Assembly (NCBI GenBank): GCA_019752115.1
Contig: JAIEMN010000025.1
Coordinates: 1-64,000, forward strand
Direction of reading: 5' to 3'
Length of the DNA stretch: 64,000 nt
Source of the DNA: Gemmatimonadaceae bacterium
GTDB taxonomy: Bacteria; Gemmatimonadota; Gemmatimonadetes; Gemmatimonadales; Gemmatimonadaceae
How positions within the stretch are numbered: the first letter of the stretch is position 1; each line of letters opens with the position of its first letter. Position numbers and translations under genes: made by a program. This document shows, piece after piece, positions 587-5,771 of the stretch. The notes beneath the pieces were generated by a model. The model was given only the letters and a program-made list of their open reading frames with translations, was not told the DNA's origin and searched no databases.

Positions 587-1063
587 TCACATGCTAGGGC
601 TCACCATGGCGAAGGTCGAATCTGTTACGAAAAAGGTTGCTACTGTGTACGGGTGAAATACGGCAACAGCTAGTGCGTAACGATTAGGCGTCATCCGGAC
701 AAGCAGACCTCCCTGCACGTAGGATGCGTTATCTGCATACGTGGGACCGAGTGCATTGTAGTAAGTCTTCCACGCAGCAAGCGCCTGACGGCATTTGATT
801 GTATCTGAGATAACAACTAGGTCGCTCAGCTTGACACCCGTGATGCCTAACGCGGAGCGCATTGGAGCGAAGTCTGCTCCAAGTTCTCCAGTATCCGTCA
901 ACACCGTTGTAATTCTATACCATGCACTGGTGTCGTAGCCCACTCCGTCGATTTGACACGGCGTACCCGTCGATCGCGCCTTCACGTTCGAAGCCCGGCT
1001 CGTTGCGGTCGCAAACACTGAGGCAGCAATGGCCACCACCACTACTAAGATTCTCATATTCAT
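587..1063 (-). CDS. Small exported two-cysteine protein, function unknown
   Basis: A 158-residue protein with an N-terminal signal peptide (residues 1-22, hydrophobic VVVVAIAAS core). The mature part has two cysteines, C36 and C91, which could form a disulfide after export. The central segment (LSDLVVISD, then IKC and an alanine-rich helix) resembles small exported proteins of unknown role that I associate with Gemmatimonadota; that resemblance is from memory of the pattern. The ATG at 1063 was chosen because the signal peptide begins there and AAAGG lies just upstream; the frame is open further but would read through the upstream gene. It starts 8 bases after the JAMM-like lipoprotein gene stops, so the two are probably co-transcribed and may act together at the envelope. 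Confidence 0.7.
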   Translation of the reverse strand: MNMRILVVVVAIAASVFATATSRASNVKARSTGTPCQIDGVGYDTSAWYRITTVLTDTGELGADFAPMRSALGITGVKLSDLVVISDTIKCRQALAAWKTYYNALGPTYADNASYVQGGLLVRMTPNRYALAVAVFHPYTVATFFVTDSTFAMVSPSM

Positions 1064-1071
1064 GATGACCT

Positions 1072-3057
1072 TTACGGGTTGAAGTAAGGCGACTTCGAGC
1101 TTGGCGACAGACAGAAATGGCTGTTCCTGGGAGTGGTCCGTTCCCAACCCTTCACTGCGGGCTTCAGTTTGCCGTAGTCGGGCAGAAAATTCGTTACTCC
1201 TTTTGGGGTGATGACTGGACGCCACGAGGTCGGTTGTTTCATCACCCAGATCCGATCCGGTTCGATCACAACGTGGCGAAAGTTGGCATCGAGCAGCCCC
1301 GGATACAGAAGTGTTTCGCGATAATACCGATCTTGGAGATACGCGTCGAAAACACTCGTATGCCAGTCGGAGGCGCTCGGTCCAGTTTGCATCCACTGAT
1401 AGCTCAGCTCCCGACAGTTGCCAGGCGTTTGCTGGCCCTGCTTAAAGGGGTGTGTGTGGAAGGACGCGACGATCTTCATTACACCAGGCACCCAGTTGGG
1501 CGGCAAGAAGGCCCTAATATCCTCAGTGGCTGCGGGTGTCTGACAGGGGGTCGTAAGCGTCGAGATCGACTGGTATCGGGTGATAAGAGTCCCGGCAGAG
1601 TCGATGAGAAGCGCGGTTCGCTCGCGACGCGCGCTATCCACAGGTGCGTCGCCGCCTATCTTCCAAAGGCTATCCATAGTCGAACGGATCTGAAAGCTAT
1701 CCAAGAGCGAGTCTCCGACTGGACAGGGGATCTGTTCCACCTCGGTCGTGGTCGTGAGCGTTACACCCGTCTTGGTGATAGCTGTCACCGTGAGAATAGC
1801 AGGAGCGTCTCCGCTGACCACGCACTCGGCGGCCGCGGCGTCGCAGCTGGATGAGGCGCTTACGCTCGCAATTAGGCTCGCTCGTCGGAGGGAAATTGGT
1901 GGGGCGCTGACACTAATGCTGATTGAGGCAAAGTCGCGCTCTACCGGTGACGTTCTCACTCTCACTGGAAGCGCGTCCATTGTGGAGCCGACCGCGCGCG
2001 GCATGGGGGTGGCTATAAGCTTCAACGGATTGACCACAACCTTCGCAAACGCCTGCTCAACGCGAGGTCCAGGGGTCAGGGACCCCTTCACGAACATATT
2101 CCCTGTGCGAAACACTGGGACACGGCAACCTGCGGCGCCATTAGCGCAGACGCCAGTTTGATAATCTGGCGGTGTGATCTGCAGCGACCCGCCTATCCTT
2201 CTGTTGTGCGGCACCCACGCCCAGCGCTGCGATCCGGCAACCAACGAGAAGCCGCTCGCCGAGGCGGAAGTGAACGTCACGGAGTCACCTTCGTACACAG
2301 TGGATGGAGTCGCCGTCAGGCTGAGCATGTCCATCCACGGATGCATTGTAATAGTCTGCGAGGCGTCACCTGCAATGACGCACGGTCCGTTGAGGCAATT
2401 GTACCAGCCGGGCCAGCTCGGCTGATTCATACCGGTTCGCAGCACCGAGCCACTGCCCCGGAGAGGCCCAATCACAGTCTTCTCTGCGACGATGACGTTG
2501 TCTCCGTCGTTATTGTTGTACGAGAGACCGCACGAGCGAAGGGTATACATCTCAGAACCAAACACTCGGAAATTGGTTCTGATCTCGCCGTAGCAGAAGC
2601 TTGAGCTGAATGCTCCGTCCGCATCTATGGGCTTGTAATACGATCCCTGTAAGTACGCAAAGGCCGGCGTCATCGCAGACACGTACGCACGGGGAATCGT
2701 TCCCTTAACGTTCATCAGCATGTACGTCAGGTCAGCGAGCGTGTCAGGCCATGCTACTGAATTTTCCGCCGTATACTTGTTCGGCCCCGTCTCCAGAATT
2801 CGCGTCCGCGTACCGGGTACCTCTCCGGGGACGAAAATGCAGTCGGTCCCGCACGGCGTCGGCGTAGTCTCTGACAGGGTGGTAAGCCGAGGACGGACGT
2901 TGTCTATCGTCGGTTGTGACGGCGAGTTCCTCGAGGGAGGCGTGATCGAGTCGCGGCAGCCGACCGCGCCAAGACCAAGCAGCGCAGTGAGTGTCCACTC
3001 AAGGGACGAATGGCATCCGAAGCGCCAAGGACTGGGGAATACCTTGGGAATCTTCAT
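1072..3057 (-). CDS. Lipoprotein with C-terminal JAMM/DUF4329-like domain
   Basis: A 661-residue predicted lipoprotein. The ATG at 3057 is preceded by GAGAGG at a spacing of 5; a GTG two codons earlier is less likely. Counting from that GTG, the lipobox ends at C36 (LGAVGC). The middle (about 240-440) looks Ig-like or beta-rich. The C-terminal third carries what looks like a JAB/JAMM metal site: E481 in ERTALLI, HTHP at 536-539, and SASD at 563-566 (S-x2-D), followed by a beta strand VVIEPDRIWV. JAMM and DUF4329 domains use Glu, two His and Asp to bind zinc and many cleave isopeptide or peptide bonds; this copy keeps those positions. Surface location and hydrolase activity are inferred. The frame is intact. 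It is followed after 8 bases by the small exported protein, and lies in lower-GC DNA than the core genes to the right. Confidence 0.72.
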   Translation of the reverse strand: MKIPKVFPSPWRFGCHSSLEWTLTALLGLGAVGCRDSITPPSRNSPSQPTIDNVRPRLTTLSETTPTPCGTDCIFVPGEVPGTRTRILETGPNKYTAENSVAWPDTLADLTYMLMNVKGTIPRAYVSAMTPAFAYLQGSYYKPIDADGAFSSSFCYGEIRTNFRVFGSEMYTLRSCGLSYNNNDGDNVIVAEKTVIGPLRGSGSVLRTGMNQPSWPGWYNCLNGPCVIAGDASQTITMHPWMDMLSLTATPSTVYEGDSVTFTSASASGFSLVAGSQRWAWVPHNRRIGGSLQITPPDYQTGVCANGAAGCRVPVFRTGNMFVKGSLTPGPRVEQAFAKVVVNPLKLIATPMPRAVGSTMDALPVRVRTSPVERDFASISISVSAPPISLRRASLIASVSASSSCDAAAAECVVSGDAPAILTVTAITKTGVTLTTTTEVEQIPCPVGDSLLDSFQIRSTMDSLWKIGGDAPVDSARRERTALLIDSAGTLITRYQSISTLTTPCQTPAATEDIRAFLPPNWVPGVMKIVASFHTHPFKQGQQTPGNCRELSYQWMQTGPSASDWHTSVFDAYLQDRYYRETLLYPGLLDANFRHVVIEPDRIWVMKQPTSWRPVITPKGVTNFLPDYGKLKPAVKGWERTTPRNSHFCLSPSSKSPYFNP

Positions 3058-3157
3058 TAGCACCTCTCGGGATGAGACATCACACTATTCTGGCCGGGAA
3101 TCTCGGCGCTGGATGATATCTTTCGGCGTCATTCTAGCGTCACCCGAATAGTCCCAT

Positions 3158-3364: not shown

Positions 3365-4055
3365 CACACGCCTCGCGGCTAGTACCGGGGACTGACGAAG
3401 ATCGTCGACGCTAACGCGCACCAGCGTGTGGCGAGGCCCACGTGTGCCGCAACTACGTCGACCCTTCCCTGGGTTGGTGTATCGCAGGTCAGCCGCGTCG
3501 GTTCATCCGCCTGCGCCTTGCGCCACGCAATGCGTTGAACCATCCGATCCCGGAGTGGTGCTGGAGTAGTGTCCATGCGCAGAGAATACGCCGGGGTATC
3601 ACCGCGCCGTCATCTTTTGCCACGTCAACCGTCCGATATGCAGCAGCGGACCGGCGCCCCGCATACCGCACGCAAAGCGATGTGCAGCGTCGTGGGCGAC
3701 ACGTGCCTCCGCCTACGGCGAGCACCCAGATTGTCAGAGCCGGTATCCCGCGGTACAGGCGAGCGCGTAGCCCCGCCGCGCTCACCCGCCGTGGGTGGCG
3801 CACTGCATTCGGGATCAGCTGTAATGGATACCAATTCGAATTGCTAATGTATTCCGTCGCGCGCGATCATATCGTCCCTGCGCGTGTTGATGCACTTTGA
3901 TGGCGCTCGCACGCAACATGCGCAGGGACGAACAACACAGTAATTGCCGTATTGCATTACCCCGCGCGACGCCTACCTTCGGGCGTGTTGTTTGGTTGCA
4001 TGCAGGTATTTCATTGAAGCCGTCGTGCTGCAACGTGACGGGAATCGGAGGACGT
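3365..4055. other. Intergenic stretch, only a hairpin recognised
   Basis: About 690 bases with several short frames on both strands (for example plus 3442-3900 and minus 3489-3803). None has a ribosome site, a family resemblance or a credible composition. The one structure I can support is the hairpin at 3873-3930. The last part, upstream of the Big_2 lipoprotein at 4056, is AT-richer than the flanks and probably holds its promoter, but no clear -35/-10 pair stands out. Confidence 0.4.
3873..3930 (+). repeat. Inverted repeat (17-base arms) upstream of Big_2 lipoprotein
   Basis: Arms 3873-3889 and 3914-3930 are complementary at 16 of 17 positions, with a 24-base loop. The hairpin lies about 125 bases before the start codon at 4056. 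It could be a leader structure, an operator or a terminator for an upstream transcript; no T-run follows it on either strand. Confidence 0.5.
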
Positions 4056-5771
4056 ATGAGGCGAATCGCGCAGAGAGTCCTTGGCTCGCTGCTGGTACTG
4101 TGTGCCGCTAGTTGTGGCGGGAGCAGTGGCGACGCGGGGACGACAGCGCCACCACCGGTCGCGTCGGTCGCTTCCGTTGAAGTTTCGCTAGGCGCGAGCG
4201 CGCTAGCTGTCGGCGCGACCACGACAGCCGCTGCTACGCTTCGCACTGCGACCGGTTCGATCGTTTTCGGCAAAGCGGTCTCGTGGTCATCAAGCACCCC
4301 AACAGTCGCATCCATCGACGGATCGGGAACGGTAACGGGGCTGAGTGCCGGAACCACGACAATCACGGCGACCGCCGATGGGCGCAGCGGATCGGCGGTC
4401 GTGACCGTGACGCCTGTGCCCGTGGCGAGCATCAGCCTGTCCCTCGCCGCTTCGTCGATCGCGGCGAATACAAGCGTACAGGCGACCGCGGTGGCTCGCG
4501 ATGCCGCCGGCGCCGCGCTCTCGGGTCGGCAAATCACGTGGACGACCAGCGCGTCGCAGATTGCCACCGTCTCCCAGACGGGGCTCGTGCAGGGGATCGC
4601 GCCGGGAACCGCGACGATTACCGCCACGAGCGAAGGGCGGAGCGCGAGCGCGACGATCACCGTGACGCAGCCGCCGGTGGCAAGTGTCGTGGTCAGTCTG
4701 GTTACCACGACCCTCACGCCTGGCCGCACCACGCAAGCCACGGTCCTTACCCGAGACGCGAGCGGGGCGGCGCTGAGCGGTCGCACGGTCACGTGGACGA
4801 GTACGAACGAATCGGTGGCCGTGGTCTCCACGAGTGGTGTGGTCACCGCGATCGGTGTAGGCGCTGCGTCGATCACGGCGACGAGTGAAGGCGTGACCGG
4901 CAGTGCTGCACTCACGGTCGGACCGGCTCCCGTCGCGACCGTGCAAGTCACTCCAGGCACGAGCACCCTCGCGGTTGGCCAGTCCACCGCATTGCAAGCG
5001 ACACTGCGCGACGATCTTCAGAACGTGCTGACGGGACGAACGGTTGCCTGGACCACCAGCAATGCGACTATTGCCCAAGTCTCGTCGTCGGGCGTTGTGA
5101 CAGGGTTTTCGTCGGGGAGCGCCACGATTACCGCGACCAGTGAAGGCAAGTCAGCCACGGCAGCTATCACCGTCACTGCCGCCGCCGTCGCGTCCGTGAC
5201 TCTATCGGCCAATTCGTTCAGCATGCTCGCAGGGGACTTCCGCACGCTGATTGCGACCTCTCGGGATGCGCAGGGCAATGTGCTCACCGGACGATCGGTC
5301 AGCTGGTTCTCGAGCAATCTCTCCGTCGTAGACGGTCAGGTCTTCGGGGACACCGCAGTCATTACCGGGCTCACCGCCGGCGCAGCCGTGGTCACCGCTA
5401 ACGTCGAAGGACGGCAAGCCAGAATCACGGTCACCGTACTGGCCCCGACGACGAATGTGTGTACGGCCATTGCCGGGGCTTCGATTATCGCGAATGACGG
5501 GAAGTATCTCGGGCGCTTTACGAATCGCTTCGACTCGGAGTCCGTGTTGAACCAGTTTGGCCAGTACGGGAGTCCGTATGCGGCGCTGAGCACCAACAAT
5601 CAGTACGGCACCTACGGCAGTCCGTATAGCAGCCTCTCGGCGAGAAACCCGTTCACTTCAACACCGCCGGTCATTGTGAAGAACGGGACCGCACTCGCGT
5701 ACTACACCGTGAATGCGACCAAGACACCAAGCGTAGCGCCCGCCTACGCGCTGACCTGCACGTTCCCGTAG
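4056..5771 (+). CDS. Big_2 (Ig-like) repeat lipoprotein with YGSPY tail
   Basis: A 571-residue predicted lipoprotein. The start at ATG 4056 is preceded by GGAGG; the lipobox is LCAASC near residue 20. Five bacterial Ig-like (Big_2) repeats of about 80 residues follow, each with a V-A-S-V start, a W in the W-T/S-S segment and an ending like TITATSEG. The last 100 residues form a different domain: a YLGRFTNRF segment, two copies of Q/G-YG-x-YGSPY and an IVKNG turn. That pattern occurs in other exported bacterial proteins of unknown role. Big_2 domains typically serve as stalks or adhesive modules at the cell surface. It opens a plus-strand run of exported proteins (to 7379). Function is unknown beyond surface display. 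Confidence 0.75.
   Translation: MRRIAQRVLGSLLVLCAASCGGSSGDAGTTAPPPVASVASVEVSLGASALAVGATTTAAATLRTATGSIVFGKAVSWSSSTPTVASIDGSGTVTGLSAGTTTITATADGRSGSAVVTVTPVPVASISLSLAASSIAANTSVQATAVARDAAGAALSGRQITWTTSASQIATVSQTGLVQGIAPGTATITATSEGRSASATITVTQPPVASVVVSLVTTTLTPGRTTQATVLTRDASGAALSGRTVTWTSTNESVAVVSTSGVVTAIGVGAASITATSEGVTGSAALTVGPAPVATVQVTPGTSTLAVGQSTALQATLRDDLQNVLTGRTVAWTTSNATIAQVSSSGVVTGFSSGSATITATSEGKSATAAITVTAAAVASVTLSANSFSMLAGDFRTLIATSRDAQGNVLTGRSVSWFSSNLSVVDGQVFGDTAVITGLTAGAAVVTANVEGRQARITVTVLAPTTNVCTAIAGASIIANDGKYLGRFTNRFDSESVLNQFGQYGSPYAALSTNNQYGTYGSPYSSLSARNPFTSTPPVIVKNGTALAYYTVNATKTPSVAPAYALTCTFP

Follow-up and report, generated by a model that had tools for sequence, protein, structure and literature searches.

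A divergent JAMM-domain lipoprotein and a small exported partner in Gemmatimonadaceae point to a putative enzyme-and-immunity gene pair

We analysed a 64,000-nt stretch of DNA (the window), which is contig C25 of Gemmatimonadaceae genome G000. On its reverse strand lie a lipoprotein gene and, directly downstream, a gene for a small exported protein, both at the place and strand given by the first-pass annotation (Table 1). The lipoprotein stop and the small-protein start are separated by 8 nt, and AAAGG precedes the latter start. GC content over the pair is 0.54-0.60, compared with 0.65-0.70 further along the contig. A divergent neighbour outside the pair, at 3897-5771 (+), encodes another lipoprotein with at least five bacterial Ig-like (BIG_2-type) repeats.

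Table 1 Features of the gene pair in the window
Feature	Position	Strand	Evidence or remark
Lipoprotein gene, 661 aa, ATG start	1072..3057	-	ORF and relatives; alternative GTG start at 3063
Type II (lipoprotein) signal peptide, lipobox LGAVG/C34	2959..3057	-	Sequence and lipobox scan
Ig-like/conserved N-terminal region	1738..2955	-	Alignment and profile matches; common to relatives with other C-termini
JAMM/MPN+ domain, Cys445 to Cys649	1111..1725	-	Conservation, AlphaFold2 model, fold search
Glu479, JAMM glutamate	1621..1623	-	25/25 relatives
His534-Thr-His536, predicted zinc-ligand pair	1450..1458	-	25/25 relatives; codons read
Ser561-x-x-Asp564	1366..1377	-	Asp 25/25, Ser 23/25 relatives
Small exported protein gene, 158 aa, ATG start, Sec signal peptide	587..1063	-	ORF, alignment, signal-peptide scan
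Cys36 of small protein	956..958	-	33/33 relatives
Cys91 of small protein	791..793	-	33/33 relatives

The longer protein was rightly called a lipoprotein, with lipobox LGAVGC and Cys34, and the Ig-like repeats proposed for its middle are present. As position +2 is occupied by a residue other than Asp, the Lol rule of E. coli would place the lipoprotein in the outer membrane. A lipoprotein form had been considered unusual for such a domain; it is instead the rule among JAMM-lipoprotein relatives with a complete N-terminus (lipobox scan, last six rows left out). Neither Pfam nor NCBIfam returned a match for the window lipoprotein.

On the evidence of the predicted structure, the last ~215 residues of the lipoprotein are a genuine but divergent JAMM/MPN+ domain. 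The metal-site pattern noticed at first is real: the glutamate, both histidines and the aspartate are invariant across 25 relatives and the serine is kept in 23, so the HxH and SxxD positions are retained in orthologues. The residues had been correctly picked out and are renumbered here: with the ATG at 3057 as codon 1, E481, H536, H538 and D566 become E479, H534, H536 and D564, and the earlier numbers fit a GTG two codons upstream. Structure prediction from the 25-sequence alignment (AlphaFold2, pLDDT 88.6, pTM 0.87) gave a JAMM fold: AMSH-type JAMM domains ranked first in Foldseek (E = 0.003), and all 50 matches listed by VIA were JAMM/MPN proteins (Z 7.2-8.4, rmsd 3.0-5.2), the best being Pyrococcus furiosus JAMM1 bound to SAMP2 (Z 8.4, rmsd 3.0, 117 residues). 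A Z near 8 is modest by itself, and the assignment is convincing because the listed fold matches are unanimous. Searching PDB sequences with the JAMM profile gave a best E of 0.35, with the rest weaker and nearly all AMSH-type.

In the usual JAMM motif, ~7-10 residues lie between HxH and S-x2-D. Across the 25 relatives this gap spans 18-45 residues and contains one conserved cysteine, so that the domain has the fold and the E/HxH/S-x2-D residues of the JAMM/MPN+ superfamily (M67) but lacks its short HxH-to-S spacing; we file it as a divergent JAMM variant despite the long gap because of the fold. Four further cysteines are near-invariant (24-25 of 25 relatives). Archaeal JAMM1 (5LDA) and the AMSH and Rpn11 deubiquitinases share the fold and metal-ligand arrangement but are cytosolic, keep the standard HxH-S-x2-D spacing, act on ubiquitin-like targets and are 11-17% identical to the window domain. 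The domain is predicted to bind zinc and would be an active peptidase; disulfides probably form both here and in the small protein.

The small protein was described from the start as a two-cysteine protein, and both cysteines, which lie in its mature part, recur in every relative. The residues before its conserved Cys do not form a lipobox, either in the window (RSTGTPC) or in most relatives. The window protein has no Pfam or NCBIfam match, and across its relatives no match from either collection is common to members. The search for a named family was equally fruitless by structure, with a best fold-search Z of 4.2, which shows neither novelty nor relation; a few PepSY-like and cystatin-like rows were weak (DUF2874, fetuin-B; Z 3-4). 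Among T6SS periplasmic pairs, such as the Rap1a family, a small disulfide-type periplasmic immunity protein stands beside an envelope-acting effector. The present pair resembles these in its small disulfide-type partner but differs in that a single weak Pfam match to Rap1a (E = 0.15) was obtained and no linkage to a T6SS was noticed. An unsystematic look at the surroundings of the pair likewise revealed no linked secretion or delivery system.

Profile searches of 395 genomes of the phylum gave 42 JAMM matches in 32 genomes and 106 small-protein matches in 63. These searches bore out the proposed coupling of the two genes: a small gene lies directly downstream, on the same strand, for 39 of the 42 JAMM matches (37 from coordinates compared by eye and two, L169 and L170, by direct ORF search), with gaps ranging from short overlaps to ~70 bases (start codons guessed). 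Of the three exceptions, the match in G044 is followed after 3 bases by the contig end, that in G005 is a broken JAMM gene followed by a small-gene start that continues on another contig via a 29-base overlap, and that in G150 forms the C-terminal tip of an RHS protein. Pairing is not a circular result, because 12 of the 15 JAMM matches outside the set used to build either profile are paired, and the 39/42 frequency rules out chance adjacency. A specific partner gene immediately downstream is a hallmark of polymorphic toxin-immunity systems, and it is found here at that same frequency. The window genome holds two more pairs (L002, 38% identical, and L003), and two genomes of the genus carry the pair with lipoproteins 52-55% identical.

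Pairwise distances of the two partners correlate (r = 0.55, and 0.35 outside the genus; 0 of 5,000 permutations in each case). This correlation, and the persistence of pairing through strong divergence and different N-termini, make it a very remote prospect that the small proteins form an unrelated envelope family kept in an old operon without direct interaction, for all that its many stand-alone members would suit such an origin. On a wider scale, an insensitive short-pattern scan found no plasmid match and no viral contig match for the pair; it did find one relative, in truncated form, at the end of a Longimonas halophila contig.

Dependence between the genes runs one way. A JAMM gene almost never lacks a small gene, but some two in three small genes are found without a JAMM gene. 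On a 71-row tree (135 columns, many weak forks), the paired/orphan label switches 25 times, at least 12 of these forced by well-supported branches, and the labels are no more clustered than when shuffled. Four genomes (G005, G006, G009 and G018) keep an open small gene beside a JAMM gene that has been truncated or of which only the tail is left. G004 and G021 lack any JAMM match, and comparison of their orphans (L079 versus L081) gave a low dN/dS of 0.17, which is only rough because dS is high. Orphan partner genes without the enzyme, another mark of polymorphic toxin-immunity systems, are thus present. Such behaviour is typical of immunity genes, whereas loss of the enzyme should entail loss of a chaperone, propeptide or substrate. 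The one-way dependence therefore favours the reading that the pair is a cell-envelope peptidase effector with an exported immunity or inhibitor protein, which we consider somewhat more probable than even. The small family may also have another primary role, given its many members without a JAMM neighbour.

The pairing and the export signals would fit a non-aggressive pair equally, one in which a nutritional or envelope-maintenance JAMM peptidase is folded or restrained by the small protein, as chaperone or inhibitor, until it reaches the surface; the PepSY-like and cystatin-like rows of the fold search also lean this way. A dedicated chaperone should go with its client, however, and orphans are no rarer than pairs and are kept beside broken JAMM genes. 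With a spread as sporadic as 32 of 395 genomes, we regard a non-aggressive role as unlikely. The first-pass annotation had offered inhibitor, partner or substrate as roles for the small protein, and of these inhibition or immunity is now favoured and the substrate role disfavoured, on the grounds of the orphan genes, the one-way dependence and the unconserved C-terminal tail. Small ubiquitin-like partners are the classical targets of JAMM enzymes, and the best structural match is a JAMM1 with SAMP2, so the small protein might be processed as ubiquitin-like proteins are; but in the alignment of relatives its C-termini show no conserved tail and no di-glycine, two thirds of its genes stand without a JAMM gene, and the fold search contained no ubiquitin-like row (weak evidence), which together render such processing improbable.

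Under the favoured reading of effector and exported immunity protein, the lipoprotein would be exported and lipid-anchored, displaying its JAMM domain on an Ig-like stalk, and the disulfide-stabilised metallopeptidase would cut an envelope protein of neighbouring cells or in the surroundings of the producer. Its operon partner, the small disulfide-bonded protein exported by Sec, would bind the JAMM domain while in the periplasm, thereby protecting the producer or a kin cell. Toxicity, direct binding, neutralisation by the small protein, the nature of the target and delivery to other cells are the parts of this scheme that we infer.

Toxin-type relatives of the domain are known. Tox-JAB-2/DUF4329 (PF14220), found with Imm-NTF2-2 (PMC3482391), shares the JAB/JAMM superfamily, the E, H[ST]H, S and D residues, a position at the C-terminal tip and an adjacent partner gene. 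The relation to DUF4329 suggested earlier holds as profile-profile kinship (hhalign of the JAMM family against three DUF4329 sequences of the phylum: Prob 89, E = 2.3e-6; small-protein control, Prob 5) but not as a Pfam assignment, the DUF4329 model having no match in the window protein and matching two of 25 relatives at E >= 0.004, below the cut-off. Unlike Tox-JAB-2, the window lipoprotein has its own signal peptide and lipobox in place of RHS/T6SS trafficking, its family has four extra cysteines and a long insert, and its partner is a Sec-exported two-cysteine protein that no Imm family matches convincingly. A toxin-type JAB is likewise joined to an exported partner in the Tox-JAB-1/Imm65 pair (PMC3482391), but there the lipoprotein is the partner, Imm65, whereas in the window it is the enzyme, and the small protein has no lipobox; Tox-JAB-1 was reported on RHS proteins of Bacteroidetes only (PMC3482391). 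Prok-JAB was set aside, as the profile comparison matched the HTHP stretch only (Prob 24). The suggested link to toxin-type JAB domains was upheld within the phylum, where an RHS protein of G150 carries the JAMM domain seen in the lipoproteins at its C-terminal end. That RHS-repeat protein (L172, G150:C1, 2892-3590 (-)) is tipped by the JAMM family at E = 1.4e-7, and no small-protein match was found downstream of it.

Nuclease action was proposed for toxin JAB domains by Zhang et al. 2012 (PMC3482391), and kinship to the RHS-borne and DUF4329 JAB domains would extend the proposal to the window domain as a nuclease toxin that reaches the cytoplasm of its target. However, since the conserved partner is an exported protein too, protection would be needed outside the cytoplasm, and the four near-invariant cysteines fit an extracytoplasmic domain. 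Because both partners are predicted to be exported and carry conserved cysteines, we argue that they would act outside the cytoplasm, and we find a nuclease role very improbable.

The SitA/SitI system of myxobacteria (PMC5562445) is alike in its outer-membrane-type lipoprotein, C-terminal enzymatic domain, downstream partner gene and variable C-termini among relatives of the N-terminal module, and the lipobox, C-terminal enzyme domain and downstream partner are all present in the window. SitA domains act in the cytoplasm, are mostly nucleases and are delivered by TraA/B, and no homologues were reported outside Myxococcales (PMC5562445). By analogy, the pair's mode of action would resemble that of polymorphic toxin-immunity pairs and SitA lipoprotein toxins, and interbacterial use is plausible.

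The gene pair thus points to an unrecorded enzyme-and-immunity system built from two protein families for which neither Pfam nor NCBIfam has a model, and to interbacterial conflict in an understudied soil phylum, for which the literature searched held no polymorphic toxin report. According to Zhang et al. 2012, the prokaryotic JABs known until then were intracellular enzymes, connected for the most part with ubiquitin-like proteins; toxin JABs were guessed to be nucleases (PMC3482391). Being exported, rich in conserved cysteines and tied to an exported partner, the JAMM-lipoprotein family provides a clear-cut way to test whether JAMMs of the toxin type act as envelope peptidases.

Several observations bear on mobility. 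The window genome carries an orphan paralogue on contig C52, 60% identical to the window small protein, as a single ORF between six attC-like repeats of ~102 nt each, whose hairpin is stable (z = -5.75). Genome-wide the repeat is present in sixteen copies, none of them on the window's contig. We tentatively entertain, as possible though short of probable, a phylum-wide set of self-exported, lipid-anchored JAMM envelope-peptidase toxins with a new exported disulfide immunity family that also spreads alone as integron-like cassettes. On that view the lipoproteins would represent a JAMM lineage that works outside the cytoplasm and has no ubiquitin-like partner. The C52 array itself (L082, 1-5060) is integron-like, with one ORF after each of the six repeats, and includes a RelE/HigB-like toxin-antitoxin pair besides the orphan paralogue.

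A tRNA gene was present in 12 of 31 loci, several less than 300 bases from the pair, compared with ~3 expected (a rough estimate from usual tRNA density). JAMM pairs or orphan small genes share their stretch with tRNA-Phe(GAA) in L095, L086, L097 and L075; the association recurs in three genomes of the genus and in a fourth from another family, and marks a possible integration hotspot.

Polymorphic toxins carry exchangeable C-terminal domains on a shared N-terminal module, and relatives of the window lipoprotein may do likewise. Two from one genome (G006; L077, 3628-5523, and L086, 4095-5972) have N-terminal modules that are 82% identical and are unrelated past residue ~360, and they have only the Ig-like part in common with the window lipoprotein. 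The C-terminus of L086 has an HETVH motif, suggesting another metallopeptidase, and the next gene encodes a predicted membrane protein. Small genes stand in tandem in L154, L181 and L185, and two small-protein domains share one open frame in L167 (G057:C7, 3246-4181).
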